Below, piece by piece: positions 1,908 through 32,804 of a stretch of DNA of 32,804 bases; position 1 is the first letter of the stretch, and each line of letters opens with the position of its first letter. Source of the stretch: Acidobacteriota bacterium (GTDB lineage Bacteria; Acidobacteriota; Terriglobia; Acidiferrales; UBA7541). A program made the translations under genes and the position numbers. Where the stretch lies: positions 1 to 32,804 of the forward strand of contig QHYM01000330.1 in NCBI GenBank assembly GCA_003223295.1. The letters run 5' to 3'. The notes beneath the pieces were generated by a model. The model was not told where the DNA came from and searched no databases. It was given only the letters and a program-made list of their open reading frames with translations.

Positions 1908-4145
1908 GTGAACCGGCGCTCATTTCTGTTGACGACTGCCTCGCTAATTTCGCCTCCCGCCGATTTTCTGCGGAACGCGGCCACAGGCGAGATTTCACGA
2001 CCTGCCGACGACGGTCGGAATTTGGTCGAAGGCCTCGCGCAGGCACCGAACGTGTCTAGTTCAGGCCCCTGGTACGCTGTTATGCGGCGCTGTGGACAGA
2101 TTAACTACAACGACCGCGACCCGCTGACCATCGACGCCGAGGCCTGGGGCGACTACTGGGCATCTCTGAAGGTCGACGCAGTGCTTCTGAACGGCGGAGG
2201 GATTGTCGCCTTCTATCCCACCCAAGTGCCTCATCACCATCGCAGCGAATTCCTCGGCACCCGCGATTTGTTTGGTGAAATGGTGGCTGCGATGAAGCGC
2301 CGGCGGATTCGTGCGGTGGCGCGCATGGATTGCAATCTCGCTTACGAGGATGCGTTGAAAGCCCATCCAGAGTGGTTCGAACGGAACCAGGATGGGTCGC
2401 CCAGGCCTCACGGCGAGAGCCCCTGGCTGTTTGCGACCTGCATGTTTAGCACGTATTTCTCCGAGCAGATGCCGGCCATCTATCGCGAAATCAATCAGCA
2501 TTATCCCATCGACGGCTTCTTCACCAATGGCTGGCCTTCTACGGGGGCTCTGCCGGTCTGTTACTGCAAGAACTGCCGGCGCCTCTTCGAGAAGCTAGGT
2601 GGAGTGCCGCCCACAGAAACGGATGCCTCAAATCCGCTTTATCGCAAGTACTACGAGGCTTATATGGACCGCGTGCAGGAGATCTGGCACCTTTGGGACA
2701 ACATTGCACACGAAAGGAACCCGCAATCCGTGTACGTAGGCAATCTTGGCGGCGGGCTCGATACCGTAAAGGATTTGAAGCAAATTAGCCAGGTGGCGGC
2801 GTGGTTCAATGCCGATCACCAGGGCCGTTCCGGGGAAACGGCGATCTGGGATTGCGCGCAACAAGGCCGTGTGGCGTATTCGGTGATGCAAGGGCGCACG
2901 GTAACAAACGTCGCGGGAGCTTACAGCAATGCGCAACCAACCTGGCGGCACGTGTCGAAGGCGCCTGCGGAGTTGACGCTTTGGCTCGCTCAATCCACAG
3001 CGAGTGGCATGGTGCCCTGGTTTCACTGGCTGGGCGGTTCTCCGGAAGATACGCGCTGGCGCGAGGTTGGCCGTTCGTTTTTTGATTGGCTTGCGGCAAA
3101 TGAGGCCCATTTCCGCAACCGGCACTCGCTTGCAGATGTGGCGGTGCTGTATCCGCAACGTACGGTAGCTTTTTACTCGCGGCCAAACTCTCGGCGGCCA
3201 CGCCATCGCGGCGGCCCGATCGACTATCTACAAGGCCTCTACTATGCGCTACTGGAGGGGCGTTTCTTTTTCGACTTCGTGCACGAAGGAGATCTCAATC
3301 CGGTGACCCTGCGGAAATACCGCGCACTCCTGATTCCCAATGCGGCATACCTTGGCGATACTCAGTGCAACGTCATTCGACAATACGTCAAGGATGGAGG
3401 CTCTCTTCTTGCCACCTTTGAAACTTCACGTTACACGGAATGGGGCGACAGCCGACGCGATTTTCAATTGGCCGACGTTTTTGGAGCGCACGCGGCAGGC
3501 GAGGTCATCGGCCCGAAAGGAAACAGCTACGCCCGCATGGAAGCACAACATCCCATCCTCGAAGGCTTCAAAGGGACCGCGCTGCTGCCCGGAGCTGAAA
3601 ACCGCGTTTCAATAACGGCGGACTCGATTCCTCTGGTATTAAGCGTTGTTCCTGCTTATCCGGCATTTCCGCCAGAAATGGTTTATCCGCGCACGCCGCG
3701 AACAACCGAGCCCGCCGCCGTCTTTCGGGAGATCGGGAACTCGCGAGTCGCCTATTTTGCGGGCGACGTTGATCGCACCTGCTGGCGTTCCGGAAACAGC
3801 GATCTCAGCCAGCTCCTGCAGAACGCCATTCGCTGGGTAAGCGGTCCGGATTCTGTAGTCTCAGTCAACGGTGTCGGGCTGATTGAGGCATTCGCGTGGG
3901 AAACCGAGCCCGGTTACGCGCTGCATCTGCTCAACTACACCAATCCCAATATGACGCACGGCGCTATTCGCAACATCTATCCGCTTGGTCCCCAACAAGT
4001 GCGCTTCCGCGTGAATGAACGTCGTAGCATCAAGACGGTGCGTGCTCTGCGCGCTGCCACCAATCTAAAATTTCAACAACAACGCGAGACGGTCACCTTC
4101 GAGCTGCCGGGGATTGCAGATTACGAGGTCGTAGCGCTAGTGTGA
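1908..4145 (+). CDS. Tat-exported glycoside-hydrolase-like protein (GHL6-like barrel plus beta-galactosidase trimerisation-like domain)
   Basis: A 745-residue protein. Residues 1-30 carry a twin-arginine type N-terminus (N-R-R-S-F-L-L). Residues about 55-330 resemble the TIM-barrel hypothetical glycosyl hydrolase 6 group, with A-R-M-D-C-N, H-P-E-W-F, and Y-P-I-D-G-F-F-T-N-G. A C218-x-C220-x-x-C223 cluster follows directly after that strand. Residues about 370-590 resemble the beta-galactosidase trimerisation domain (D-V-A-V-L-Y-P, Y-R-A-L-L-I-P-N-A-A-Y-L, Y-V-K-D-G-G-S-L-L-A-T), and the C-terminal 150 residues look like a beta domain. The likely role is hydrolysis of a plant or microbial glycan outside the cytoplasm; substrate and catalytic acids are not assigned. 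The next gene is convergent, with stops 15 nt apart, and encodes another protein of similar build. Confidence 0.75.
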   Translation: MNRRSFLLTTASLISPPADFLRNAATGEISRPADDGRNLVEGLAQAPNVSSSGPWYAVMRRCGQINYNDRDPLTIDAEAWGDYWASLKVDAVLLNGGGIVAFYPTQVPHHHRSEFLGTRDLFGEMVAAMKRRRIRAVARMDCNLAYEDALKAHPEWFERNQDGSPRPHGESPWLFATCMFSTYFSEQMPAIYREINQHYPIDGFFTNGWPSTGALPVCYCKNCRRLFEKLGGVPPTETDASNPLYRKYYEAYMDRVQEIWHLWDNIAHERNPQSVYVGNLGGGLDTVKDLKQISQVAAWFNADHQGRSGETAIWDCAQQGRVAYSVMQGRTVTNVAGAYSNAQPTWRHVSKAPAELTLWLAQSTASGMVPWFHWLGGSPEDTRWREVGRSFFDWLAANEAHFRNRHSLADVAVLYPQRTVAFYSRPNSRRPRHRGGPIDYLQGLYYALLEGRFFFDFVHEGDLNPVTLRKYRALLIPNAAYLGDTQCNVIRQYVKDGGSLLATFETSRYTEWGDSRRDFQLADVFGAHAAGEVIGPKGNSYARMEAQHPILEGFKGTALLPGAENRVSITADSIPLVLSVVPAYPAFPPEMVYPRTPRTTEPAAVFREIGNSRVAYFAGDVDRTCWRSGNSDLSQLLQNAIRWVSGPDSVVSVNGVGLIEAFAWETEPGYALHLLNYTNPNMTHGAIRNIYPLGPQQVRFRVNERRSIKTVRALRAATNLKFQQQRETVTFELPGIADYEVVALV

Positions 4146-28273: not shown

Positions 28274-28447
28274 ACTTTTTGCACAGCCGTGCACAGCTTT
28301 CCACAGCTAAATTCGCAGATTCCCCTTGCCACGAAAAAGCGCTGGGCTTACTCTGCCGCTCAGATTGAGCCGGGAAGCCTTAAAAACTTTGCGGCACAAT
28401 TGAAAGAGGGCGCAGCGGTCGCAAGGCCGTTGCGCCCTCAATCTTTT
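28274..28447 (+). repeat. Direct repeat copy 1 (~174 bp) with phased CACAGC boxes and terminator hairpin
   Basis: This copy aligns without gaps (except in a T run) to 29458-29631 at roughly 90 % identity, counted by eye. It starts with a T run and three CACAGC boxes at 28282, 28292 and 28302, exactly 10 nt apart. In the middle a hairpin with 7-nt loop (GGCTTACTCT with AGATTGAGCC) has one mismatch. It ends with the 15-bp hairpin at 28406-28439 and ATCTTTT. It lies just downstream of the MBL-fold gene. It may encode a small RNA or be a dispersed mobile repeat. Confidence 0.75.
28406..28447. terminator. Intrinsic terminator, 15-bp stem with GCAA loop (copy 1)
   Basis: The left arm GAGGGCGCAGCGGTC (28406-28420) pairs fully, allowing two G-T pairs, with 28425-28439 around a GCAA tetraloop. 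AATCTTTT follows on the plus strand and TTTCAATT on the minus strand. It can therefore stop transcription from the plus-strand repeat and also from the MBL-fold gene, whose stop codon is 63 nt away. Confidence 0.75.
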
Positions 28448-28501
28448 GGCCCACGCCATTTCTGTCTTTGCCGTGCTGTTTCCGGAACCTCTTGTCAAAC
28501 T

Positions 28502-29410
28502 TCACTTTTCCGTTTTAATTGCCGCGTAAATCTCATGCACAAATGCATCCGCCGGAACGCGTCCGTGTCCCCACTTCTCGTCGAAGTCGGCTGTCGGGTG
28601 CTCCGCAATCACCCGGCTTTCTGTGTGCCCCGCGTCGATTGAGCGCTTCACCCGGTCGCGAACGGCCACGATCATGTCGCGAAAAGCCCTTACGCTTGTG
28701 CCGTTCGTCACTTCGCCGCGCGCGGGCACAACATGGAACCCGGGATCCGTCCATCCGTCCAGCATTTTCAGCAGCCCGTCGAGCGTGCCGCCTTGCGCGG
28801 TATCGATCGCGGGGTAGCCGTCTCCCGGAAACACTTCGCCCCAATAAACCAGCTTGGCCACATGAAAATGCACTAGCGCGTCGGCGTCGCTGTATCCCGG
28901 TTTTTGGTGCACGATGTGGACCGCCTCTCCGTTGACATCGAAGGTCATCACCTCCGAGAACGCGATTCGTGGGCGGTCGACTCCCAGTTTTACAAACCGC
29001 TCGGACAGTGGTGGCGGCGCACCCATGACGTGCCCGCCGATTCGTTCTACCGCCTTTTCCTGCATCGCCACGAACGCTCCGCGGCGTCCCCATCCCGCGT
29101 CGCCTTCCGAATGCGTGGGATCCTGCGGTGCGATCACCACGTATCGCACCGCCGATTTCGTCCGGCTCGCCAGCTCGCTGCTGATGCGTGCCGTGCTGTC
29201 TGCGGACGGCGTTCCGATGAGCAACGCACCATCCGGTCCCACCAAGGCCACGACGTTGCCGGTCTTGGTGGAAAACACTACGACAGTCGGCGTGATCTCG
29301 GTGACGGCCACTGTCTCCTGTGTGTCCATTGCGGACTGGCCCGCGAATGCAAGCACGAATCCAATTAGCACCCTCGCGCAAAGACCAGCGCCCGTTTGAA
29401 AAGCGTTCAT
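28502..29410 (-). CDS. Secreted metallo-beta-lactamase-fold protein lacking the metal ligands
   Basis: 302 residues from the ATG at 29410, which has AGGAGGGTGGAG upstream; a longer reading to 29446 is less likely. A signal peptide (V-L-I-G-F-V-L-A-F-A-G-Q-S-A) is followed by the usual MBL start (V-V-V-F-S-T-K-T-G-N-V-V-A-L-V-G-P-D-G-A-L-L-I). The strand-loop that normally carries T-H-x-H-x-D-H reads A-P-Q-D-P-T-H (94-100). The second histidine motif reads G-Y-S-D-A-D (172-177) instead of HxxGD, and the G-D-x-F bridge aspartate is E (G-E-V-F, 191-194). The reading frame is full-length, so this looks like a pseudoenzyme rather than a broken gene. It lies between the two copies of a ~174-bp direct repeat. 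Confidence 0.8.
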   Translation of the reverse strand: MNAFQTGAGLCARVLIGFVLAFAGQSAMDTQETVAVTEITPTVVVFSTKTGNVVALVGPDGALLIGTPSADSTARISSELASRTKSAVRYVVIAPQDPTHSEGDAGWGRRGAFVAMQEKAVERIGGHVMGAPPPLSERFVKLGVDRPRIAFSEVMTFDVNGEAVHIVHQKPGYSDADALVHFHVAKLVYWGEVFPGDGYPAIDTAQGGTLDGLLKMLDGWTDPGFHVVPARGEVTNGTSVRAFRDMIVAVRDRVKRSIDAGHTESRVIAEHPTADFDEKWGHGRVPADAFVHEIYAAIKTEK

Positions 29411-29457
29411 CTCCACCCTCCTGGCATGCTCCGCATGAGTGTCCATTGCGGGCCCTC

Positions 29458-29631
29458 ACTTTTGCACAGCCGTGCACAGCTTTCCACAGCGAAACTTTCA
29501 GATTCCTCTTGCCAAGAAAAAGCGCCGGGCTTAGTCTCTGGCACAGATTGAGCCGAGAAGCCTTAAAAACTTTGCGGCGCAATTGAAAGAGGGCGCAGCA
29601 GCCGCAAGGTTGTTGCGCCCTCAATCTTTTT
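29458..29631 (+). repeat. Direct repeat copy 2 (~174 bp) with phased CACAGC boxes and terminator hairpin
   Basis: Second copy of the element at 28274-28447. CACAGC boxes start at 29465, 29475 and 29485, again 10 nt apart. The middle hairpin (GGCTTAGTCT with AGATTGAGCC, 7-nt loop) is fully paired here with two G-T pairs. The end is the 15-bp hairpin at 29589-29622. It begins 47 nt upstream of the MBL-fold gene start, so that gene's promoter may lie in or beside it, and it is downstream of the aldolase-like gene. Confidence 0.75.
29589..29631. terminator. Intrinsic terminator, 15-bp stem with GCAA loop (copy 2)
   Basis: GAGGGCGCAGCAGCC (29589-29603) pairs with 29608-29622 around GCAA, followed by AATCTTTTT on the plus strand. 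Compared with copy 1, one G-C pair has become A-T, one G-C has become G-T and one T-G has become C-G, so the stem is kept although the sequence changes. It lies about 80 nt after the stop of the aldolase-like gene on the minus strand and can terminate that as well. Confidence 0.75.
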
Positions 29632-30916: not shown

Positions 30917-31060
30917 CTCGGCATCGATGATATCGCGTAATTGCGAATCAGAACCACTAGCATACAAATTCCCTTTCTGTGGAGTTGGACGTTACCATCC
31001 GAGTGCATTCTGGTTGACCACCTTTGTGGCGGATAGTAGGCTCTCTCAATTCTTTCTCCA

Positions 31061-31545
31061 ATGAGCCCTCATCCAAAGGAGCATCCCGAACGATCAGACT
31101 TGGTCCGCGGCCTCGGGCTGTGGGCGGCGACTGCGGTCGTCATTGGCGACACCATCGGATCGGGCATCTTTCTCGTCTCGAGCGACATGGCCCGTGCCTC
31201 TGGCTCGGCGACGCTGGTTTTCGCCGCCTGGATTCTCGGCGGGCTTATCGTGCTGTTTGGCGCTTTCTGTTATGCGGAGCTCGGCGCGGCATTTCCGAAA
31301 GCGGGCGGCCCATACCTTTACTTGAACCGCGGCCTTGGGCCTCTCTGGGGATTCCTGTTCGGATGGATGAGCTCCTTTCTTGAGCGGCCCGTGGCCATGG
31401 CCGCTCTGGCAGCTGGATTCCTGCGATTTCTGGGATTCCTGTTTCCCGTTGTGGCTACCCCGTTGTTCACGGGGCACGTCGGCCGGTACGCATTCACGTT
31501 CACCGCGGCCCAGCCGCTGGCGGCGCTCGTCGTGCTACTCCCTAC
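31061..31545 (+). pseudogene. APC-family amino acid permease, 3' part cut off by IS110
   Basis: From the ATG at 31061 the frame gives about 160 residues of an APC transporter. It has G-L-G-L-W-A-A-T-A-V-V-I-G-D-T-I-G-S-G-I-F-L in helix 1, then Y-A-E-L-G-A-A-F-P-K-A-G-G-P-Y-L-Y-L with the conserved helix-3 motif, and G-F-L-F-G-W-M. Family members have about 450-500 residues, so two thirds are missing. The homology stops at L-A-A-L-V-V-L-L, where the IS110 element begins. The same frame remains open through the antisense of the transposase to the window end, which is accidental. The rest of the gene may lie beyond the element. Confidence 0.75.
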
Positions 31546-32804
31546 GAAAATACCTTCAGGCGGTCTGCGCGAGTGGCTCCAAGGTCACTTTGTGGCCCAG
31601 GCGTTCCAGCCGTCTGACCAAGGATCGGCGAATTCGCTTCACGTCGATCCGATCAAAGTGATCCGCGCCGAGTTCCCGGTAGTCTTCCTTACGCTTCAGC
31701 ATGTGATAAGCAATCTCCAGCAGCGCATGGGCTACCGCCATGATCGCGCGCTTGGCTCCCCGCCGAGCAGCAATGCGCCGATACAGGGTCGAGAGATAGT
31801 TATTCTTCATCATCGAAATGGCCCAGGCCGCCTGCGACAAGCAACGCCGGAGCGAGACATTGCCCTTGCGCATCTTGCCACTCAGCCGCTTCCCAGCGCT
31901 CTCAAAACTCCCCGGACACAAACAAGCCCAAGAAGCCAGGTGCCCGGAAGACGGAAACTGATTCATGTTCATTCCCATTTCCGCCAGCATTCCCCACGCG
32001 GTCACTCGGTCGACTCCGGGAATGGTGCACAGCCGAATGACCTCATCCTGAAAAGGGCGCATGCGCTTATCGATCTCCTGCTCGATCTCACTCCGTTTCG
32101 ATTCCGTAAAGCGCAGATGATCGAAGAGCTGTCGGAGCAAAAATCGATGATGCTCGGTCATACGACCTTCGAGCGCCAGCTGCAGTTCCGGGATCTTGTT
32201 CCGCAGTTTCCCTTGGGCCATCTCTGCCAGTCGGGCCGAGTCTCGCTCCCCAGCGAGCATCGCCTCCAAGATCGCTCTCCCGGAAGCACCCAAAGCGTCG
32301 GTCGCTACCGATGCCAACTTAATGTTGGCATCCTCCAGCACCTTCTGAATGCGATTCGCAATCCGGTTGATCTCCTGTACCAAACTCACGCGATACCGCG
32401 TGAGGTCGCGAAGTTCACGTGTTGGTTGCGGGGGCACGAAACTCCCCCGGAGCAATCCGTGCTGCAGCAAGTCCGCAATCCACTCACTGTCTTTCTGGTC
32501 GGTCTTCCGACCCGGCACGGCTTTGATGTGCTGCGCATTCACCAGCAACACCTCGAACTGCTCCGCAAGAATGTTCCACACCGGCTTCCAGTACACGCCA
32601 GTGGACTCCATGGCCAAATGCGTTACGCCGCACTCCGCCAGCCAATCGGCCAACTGAAGCAGATCGTGAGTGAATGTCCCGAAGCGCTTCTTCTCTTTAC
32701 GGCTCTTCCCCTTGGCCTCAGCCCACAACACACATGCGGTAATACTCTTCTTATGTACGTCCAAACCACAACAGCAGGGATAGACAACTTCCATCGCGCG
32801 ACTC
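31545..32804 (-). mobile_element. IS110-family insertion sequence, one end outside the window
   Basis: The element is recognised from its transposase and from the break in the APC permease. Its right end (transposase 3' side) is placed near 31535-31550 by the loss of permease homology; no inverted repeats were seen, as is normal for IS110. Only 10 bases upstream of the transposase start are in the window. The non-coding left end, where IS110 elements usually encode the bridge RNA, is therefore not visible. Confidence 0.8.
31556..32794 (-). CDS. IS110-family DEDD transposase (bridge-RNA-guided recombinase)
   Basis: A complete 412-residue protein. The N-terminal RuvC-like domain shows D12 in G-L-D-V-H-K-K, E63 in M-E-S-T-G-V-Y-W and D99/D102 in K-T-D-Q-K-D, the DEDD set. 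The C-terminal Transposase_20 domain has I-P-G-V-D-R-V-T-A and the catalytic serine region G-H-L-A-S-W-A-C-L-C-P-G, followed by K-M-R-K-G-N. It catalyses cut-and-paste style recombination with a bridge RNA in characterised relatives. All key residues are present, so the element may be active. Start and stop lie very close to the element ends. Confidence 0.93.
   Translation of the reverse strand: MEVVYPCCCGLDVHKKSITACVLWAEAKGKSRKEKKRFGTFTHDLLQLADWLAECGVTHLAMESTGVYWKPVWNILAEQFEVLLVNAQHIKAVPGRKTDQKDSEWIADLLQHGLLRGSFVPPQPTRELRDLTRYRVSLVQEINRIANRIQKVLEDANIKLASVATDALGASGRAILEAMLAGERDSARLAEMAQGKLRNKIPELQLALEGRMTEHHRFLLRQLFDHLRFTESKRSEIEQEIDKRMRPFQDEVIRLCTIPGVDRVTAWGMLAEMGMNMNQFPSSGHLASWACLCPGSFESAGKRLSGKMRKGNVSLRRCLSQAAWAISMMKNNYLSTLYRRIAARRGAKRAIMAVAHALLEIAYHMLKRKEDYRELGADHFDRIDVKRIRRSLVRRLERLGHKVTLEPLAQTA

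Follow-up and report, generated by a model that had tools for sequence, protein, structure and literature searches.

A putative DnaA-responsive family of structured small RNA genes in subdivision-2 Acidobacteria

The window analysed here, that is, the whole stretch of 32,804 nucleotides of contig QHYM01000330.1 (assembly GCA_003223295.1), carries the same intergenic element twice, and the locus raises the question of whether such a pair is a copied spacer, a site that acts as DNA, or a gene for an RNA. BLAST places copy 1 at 28277-28447 and copy 2 at 29460-29630, both on the plus strand, with 89.5% identity and 18 differences over 171 aligned bp, in agreement with a sequence-only reading that had described a duplicated element of about 174 bp differing at about 18 places; the ends given by an RNA covariance model are 28448 and 29631. 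The answer developed below, held with reasonable confidence, is that each copy is a gene for a structured small RNA, with a promoter that would be under the control of DnaA, the initiator of replication. The parts of the two copies are as follows.

28277-28305, plus strand: copy 1, trio of DnaA-like boxes TTTTGCACA / CCGTGCACA / CTTTCCACA at 10-bp phase
28326-28331, plus strand: copy 1, -35-like TTGCCA, 20 bp past box 3 (TTGACG aligned there in relatives)
28349-28354, plus strand: copy 1, -10-like TACTCT after a 17-bp spacer (TATCTT aligned there in relatives)
28361-28448, plus strand: copy 1, predicted RNA of ~87 nt, its start inferred from promoter spacing and the onset of RNA-only matches
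28363-28401, plus strand: copy 1, P1 hairpin (28363-28377 paired to 28387-28401, with two or three mismatches)
28406-28448, plus strand: copy 1, GCAA-capped 15-bp terminator hairpin (28406-28439) and U-rich tail
29460-29488, plus strand: copy 2, trio of DnaA-like boxes at 10-bp phase
29509-29514, plus strand: copy 2, -35-like TTGCCA
29532-29537, plus strand: copy 2, -10-like TAGTCT after a 17-bp spacer
29544-29631, plus strand: copy 2, predicted RNA of ~87 nt
29546-29584, plus strand: copy 2, P1 hairpin (29546-29560 paired to 29570-29584, with two or three mismatches)
29589-29631, plus strand: copy 2, GCAA-capped terminator hairpin (29589-29622) and U-rich tail

The 15-bp stem capped by GCAA is intact in both copies, and the changes listed earlier within it (G-C to A-T, G-C to G-T, and T-G to C-G) are found again base by base; pairing is kept in all three, but only one of them is a double-sided compensation, and taken alone these changes are weak evidence. 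Similarly, the second hairpin is indeed kept in both copies, but its apical loop measures 9 nt in the folds and not the 7 nt first described. The length of about 170 nt proposed for the RNA has to be given up, as the first ~85 bp of the element look like a promoter with upstream sites, leaving a likely RNA of ~87 nt.

Conservation and fold of the single-unit RNA

The sequence-only reading had proposed a search for further copies in the genome and its relatives, and such copies exist. The own genome holds four by BLAST (an additional fifth row is a 16-base chance match and was left out of the count), and of 61 genomes searched with copy 1, 20 have relatives, the own genome included, all 20 in the same genus. 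A covariance model, R1, was built from 21 sequences, namely 20 copies of the single-unit form plus the first unit of one array (L016); it matches 29 of the 36 genus genomes at E 0.001, a count that includes the own and ten training genomes, and six of the 36 have neither an R1 match nor an RNA preceded by a box trio. Under a stricter filter, by which weak matches are lost, R1 matches 40 of 95 genomes of the order and 38 of 399 of the class (E 0.0001), the latter all within one family, and none of the 310 sampled class genomes outside that family at the same threshold. A scan of the genome collection for the promoter-plus-start pattern gave 33 stretches, 28 of them in Acidobacteria/Terriglobia records, mostly 'gp2' and also 'Candidatus Acidiferrum typicum'; the remaining five, in unrelated organisms, were taken for chance. 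In the window and in 13 loci, own-genome copies making up three of these, no Rfam 15 family matches the element at its gathering score, and the below-threshold matches are weak and far beneath their cut-offs. Searches of the open-access literature gave no title or abstract that describes this RNA, most subscription papers lying outside that coverage. The element looks like an uncatalogued small RNA gene of soil Acidobacteria: it is intergenic, has a promoter of its own by pattern and an intrinsic terminator, and is without a conserved reading frame.

Both window copies fold far better than shuffled sequence, with z-scores of -6.7 for copy 1 and -6.1 for copy 2 (0 of 200 shuffles as good for each). 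In the single-unit RNAs, the helix P1 is formed by the 5' end and the strand preceding the terminator. P1 was evaluated in a set of 41 distinct RNAs, 83 to 535 nt in length; 40 of them reach at least -11.6 kcal/mol in stability, the exception being L128 (-5.9 kcal/mol), and two more RNAs, in which the script found no terminator, were left out of this set. When the strands were shuffled, no more than 2 of 200 shuffles equalled P1 for all 22 single-unit RNAs and for 15 of the 19 multi-unit ones. In the window the terminator is capped by GCAA; in many relatives the loop is UAAC, UCAC, or GAAA, and still other loops occur in some, such as L028 and L084. GNRA and UMAC loops resemble each other in structure; a literature search on the UMAC loop term found nothing.

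Covariation over the 21 copies is modest. Of 30 pairs, four show a change on both sides. All four belong to the terminator helix, and 105 of 500 shuffles reach this number, which is not beyond chance; nine double-change cells (reached by 7 of 500 shuffles) and 89.5% of cells paired (reached by 2 of 500) are rarer outcomes, but the sequences are related by descent, so that p-values overstate the case. Losses of pairing fall mostly at columns 9/37, 14/32, and 15/31. Many copies with broken stems, named beforehand as one finding that would speak against an RNA, are not the rule: 93.7% of cells are paired in helix 2 and 85.4% in helix 1. A hidden peptide was rejected, since the 21 RNAs of the alignment A2 (20 single-unit RNAs and L016) contain open stretches of at most 29 codons and no Shine-Dalgarno-like AGGAG, GGAGG, or GAGGA.

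A duplicated spacer or a bidirectional terminator without RNA function would account for copies that flank genes and for the weak covariation, and the four terminator-like sites in the region compare with 2.9 expected from shuffles; this explanation is nevertheless very improbable in view of the conservation across the genus, which rules out a mere copied spacer, the promoter layout described below, a P1 beyond shuffles in every single-unit RNA, and the replacement of GCAA by UAAC or UCAC in many relatives. The earlier claims that the element is kept as an RNA, and that it is a gene for a plus-strand RNA with an intrinsic terminator at its end, are upheld by comparison, and on these comparative grounds the RNA gene is very likely real.

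The neighbourhood bears on one further explanation, in which the element is a leader of minus-strand genes. Copy 2 is 13 bp upstream of the first start codon (29446, minus strand) of the 28502-29446 open reading frame. The neighbours differ between loci, however, and the T-run, the promoter, and the boxes all face the plus strand, so that a leader role is hardly credible; an attenuator or riboswitch of the minus-strand genes was rejected, as the neighbours are not constant. Copy 1 sits between the 27402-28040 gene and a D-threonine-aldolase-like gene, as do the single-unit copies in L083 and L092.

Several observations on the surroundings stand apart from these points. RNA copies flank single genes in several genomes (window 28274-29631, L075, L092, L083), the flanked gene being the 28502-29446 frame or the D-threonine-aldolase-like gene, as if genes had come and gone between repeated copies of the RNA; no Pfam family matches the 28502-29446 protein at 0.001. 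Elsewhere in the window, group II intron remnants lie at 676-894 on the plus strand (a D1-D4-6 model at 69.2 bits, directly adjoined by Intron_gpII at 42.1 bits, with no space for a reverse-transcriptase frame), and an IS110-family transposase lies at 31556-32794 on the minus strand, with adjoining short frames at 31024-31661.

Promoter layout and its likeness to dnaA-region boxes

The promoter was assigned by pattern and position alone. In the alignment of the 21 copies, an upstream block that is conserved is followed by a variable stretch, the promoter hexamers, and the RNA, and the first ~85 bp of the element consist of TNCACA boxes at 10-bp phase followed by a -35 hexamer, 17 bp, and a -10 hexamer. 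A set of 43 distinct sequences was selected by the presence of both an RNA start and three boxes at 10-bp phase; in this set, the distance from box 3 to the RNA start, for which 30-75 nt were allowed, is 55, 56, or 57 nt in 11, 31, and 1 sequences, respectively. A loose -35/-10 pattern fits 42 of the 43; among these, box 3 is exactly 20 nt from the -35 hexamer in 41, and the spacer is 17 nt in 41. The 21 aligned copies, having been chosen without regard to boxes, serve as an unselected check on this set: three TNCACA boxes are present in 15 and two in six, at constant positions, and 14 carry the strict trio, one more having three boxes with one spacing of 11; the spacer is 17 nt in 19 and 18 nt in one, and one copy lacks the pattern. 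The hexamers of relatives, TTGACG and TATCTT, compare with TTGCCA and TACTCT/TAGTCT in the window, and a generic sigma-70 promoter scan flagged no site in the region. This layout puts the probable RNA starts at ~28361 and ~29544 and the probable length at ~87 nt, and a weak promoter behind fixed upstream sites suggests an activator. At one further locus (L122; G017:C14, trio at 3341-3366), a box trio and a -35-like site are arranged as in the RNA genes but are followed by nothing recognisable as the RNA, and the locus may be a decayed copy.

The DnaA-box consensus is TTWTNCACA, and several such boxes lie upstream of dnaA in the own genome. Thirty dnaA loci were covered (33 genomes had dnaA, three of them without a locus), and 27 of the 30 have an upstream trio with the same core and a similar middle box; its phase is 11 bp, as against 10 bp at the RNA promoters. 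A DnaA matrix trained on 189 dnaA-upstream sites gives median scores of 3.1 for box 1, 0.65 for box 2, and 3.7 for box 3, compared with -1.8 for a background of 175 sites. With the first base free, NTWTNCACA is found in box 1 in 40 of 43 sequences, in box 3 in 41 of 43, in 105 of the 189 dnaA-upstream sites, and in 16 of the 175 background sites, and the exact TTWTNCACA is found in box 1 in 37 of 43; box 2 is a poor fit, with NTWTNCACA in 0 of 43.

Among the loci examined, many of which were chosen for the RNA or for dnaA so that the count is not genome-wide, TNCACA trios occur only at phases 10 and 11 and at none of 7-9 or 12-15. Genome-wide, the 10-bp trio is present in 35 of 89 family genomes, compared with two of 89 for a reversed control pattern, and in nine of the 310 class genomes outside the family. 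Its 56 places in the family were assigned by reading: 49 are upstream of an R1 match on the same strand, one precedes a divergent array (G004, L128), and six are without an R1 match, two of these overlapping each other and one (G031:C376) being counted without inspection. Exact 9-mers in common with the dnaA region of the same genome are not enriched (12 of 75 versus 38 of 332 in the background, Fisher p 0.18; the script gave no boxes for three of 24 genomes). As a separate observation by eye, L109 and L130 (G001 and G020) have three TNCACA boxes upstream of a similar frame of ~90 aa starting MLFATV, which is perhaps another DnaA-controlled gene.

These data also bear on whether the boxes bind some other transcription factor with a DnaA-box-like site, the RNA then belonging to another regulon. 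The poor match of box 2, the lack of 9-mer enrichment, the difference in phase from dnaA, and the six of 21 unselected copies with only two boxes would fit such a factor; the matrix scores above background, the common core and middle box of the dnaA-upstream trios, and the near restriction of the 10-bp trio within the family to these promoters argue against it, and it is judged unlikely. A DnaA link of the RNA promoter is, by these sequence comparisons, probable.

If DnaA binds here, the element might still act as DNA, as a titration or nucleotide-exchange site in the manner of datA or DARS, with the RNA incidental. Three DnaA-like boxes at noncoding loci in several copies would suit such a site, and the E. 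coli DARS core, as described in the source cited, likewise has three DnaA boxes (PMC5742627); in that core, however, box I is opposite to boxes II and III, and all boxes here have one orientation. The fixed distances from boxes to promoter (20 bp) and between hexamers (17 bp), each in 41 of 42 promoters, and an RNA fold that is both kept and elaborated are likewise at odds with a DNA site, and this explanation is considered quite unlikely.

Multi-unit relatives

In some relatives, in part at the orthologous site, the RNA is 235-535 nt long and comprises about 3 to 7 units of ~76 nt, its 5' end still being able to pair with the strand before the terminator. The 41 RNAs comprise 22 of 83-87 nt, five of 235-237 nt, seven of 385-392 nt, and seven others of 319-535 nt; lengths corresponding to 1, 3, and 5 units account for 34 of the 41, which would fit gain or loss of units two at a time. 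Beside relatives of the 27402-28040 gene, a 5-unit array is found in four other genomes (L078/L108, L079/L121, L089, L103/L120). One genome (G033; C41, C97, C126, C138) has eight R1 matches, several paired ~80 nt apart at more than one site, and seems to hold both single-unit and multi-unit loci. The occurrence of both forms at an orthologous site offers a natural experiment in the growth and shrinkage of a structured RNA by unit duplication.

In the 5-unit arrays, the best strand partners are S3(2)-S5(5) at -23.4, S3(3)-S5(4) at -14.6, S3(4)-S5(3) at -17.4, and S3(5)-S5(1) at -13.0 kcal/mol, compared with -9.9, -7.6, -11.3, and -6.4 kcal/mol when units 2 to 5 pair their own strands; a string of independent hairpins was therefore rejected for these arrays, own strands not being the best partners in units 2 to 5. 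Unit 1 does not discriminate (own -13.5, next -11.4, unit 3 -13.7), and S3(5) pairs with S5(4) at -12.3, almost equal to its best partner. Permutation p-values for the first three best pairs are 0.03, 0.06, and 0.18 over seven related sequences, the array alignments holding 5 to 7 related sequences each. The 3-unit consensus fold consists of P1, two arms, and the terminator; in the 5-unit consensus, the 5' end is paired locally and the first H2 strand pairs with the terminator's 3' strand. Minimum-energy folds of multi-unit RNAs pair the 5' end with the far 3' strand in 13 of 18 cases and locally in five. That the multi-unit form would be one nested multi-arm RNA and not a string of small RNAs is, from these predicted folds, suggestive only.

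Proposed mechanism and known systems

In the proposed mechanism, three DnaA boxes of one orientation and 10-bp phase stand 20 bp upstream of a weak sigma-70-type promoter, at roughly -61, -71, and -81 relative to the predicted start. As the boxes are in phase and 20 bp from the promoter, DnaA bound on one helix face could contact RNA polymerase, in the most likely case as an activator of class-I type, although it might instead repress. The transcript of ~87 nt would fold into the P1 hairpin with an A-rich loop, followed by a GNRA- or UMAC-capped intrinsic terminator, and its level would track active DnaA and hence replication initiation. The RNA would most likely act in trans, either through base pairing or as the ligand of a protein, for instance the genus's Hfq-like protein; an Hfq-like match, mostly weak, occurs in 33 of 36 genomes, seven of the 36 passing the curated cut-off. 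Gene dosage could be adjusted either by dispersed single-unit copies, four in this genome, or by one multi-unit RNA closed by P1.

Taken together, the comparisons are best read as showing a new and probably DnaA-responsive family of structured RNAs in subdivision-2 Acidobacteria. The fuller proposal, in which a DnaA-activated RNA is an output of the replication clock in these bacteria and in some lineages takes the form of a nested multi-arm RNA of 3 to about 7 units, closed by the same 5'/3' helix and with dosage set by dispersed copies or by units per molecule, is tentative and may well prove wrong, confidence in it, as in the main reading, having been slightly lowered by the box count in unselected copies and by the local folds of the 5' end.

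CsrB/RsmZ-type RNAs have several repeated hairpins and a variable gene number. The present RNA resembles them in both respects, but CsrA is found in none of the 36 genus genomes, and a CsrA sponge was accordingly rejected. Acido-1 (RF01686) and Acido-Lenti-1 (RF01687), which the source cited presents as structured RNA candidates of Acidobacteria (PMC2864571), differ from the element in that neither the window nor the 13 loci give it an Rfam match at the gathering threshold. The E. coli DARS and datA loci, according to the cited account, are clusters of three or more DnaA boxes at noncoding loci and act as DNA (PMC5742627); the element likewise clusters DnaA-like boxes at noncoding chromosomal loci, but the boxes of DARS are there described as of mixed orientation, whereas those here have one orientation and a 10-bp phase, with a promoter and an RNA at fixed distance.

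Two DnaA-linked RNAs come closer. ArrA of Bacillus subtilis is described as a DnaA-repressed antisense RNA of the dnaA leader, present in some Bacillus (PMC12112137). It has in common with the present RNA a small size and a DnaA-controlled promoter, predicted here and repressed in ArrA; unlike ArrA, the present RNA is multi-copy and structured, lies in its own genome on contigs other than that of dnaA, and does not pair with the dnaA leader beyond shuffles, the two being set apart by description and not by sequence. Duplex energies with the dnaA leader fall within those of shuffles in 10 of 10 genomes (100 shuffles each, by an approximate shuffle in two-base blocks, with one RNA per genome where up to four existed), the best being that of the own genome, with 13 of 100 shuffles as good; an ArrA-type antisense role was rejected on this basis. 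CcnA of Caulobacter crescentus is, in the account available, a cell-cycle-tied noncoding RNA of 182 nt at the origin, with three weak DnaA boxes and CtrA boxes too (PMC8959179); both are noncoding RNA genes with three DnaA-like boxes, and the present RNA differs, in a comparison by description and not by sequence, in its fixed upstream box array. DnaA-controlled RNAs appear to be few, ArrA and perhaps CcnA being those that the literature searches gave. The promoter layout found here makes such a link between DnaA and an RNA testable in vitro, and, if true, it may provide a direct route from replication initiation to RNA regulation in a mostly uncultured soil lineage.
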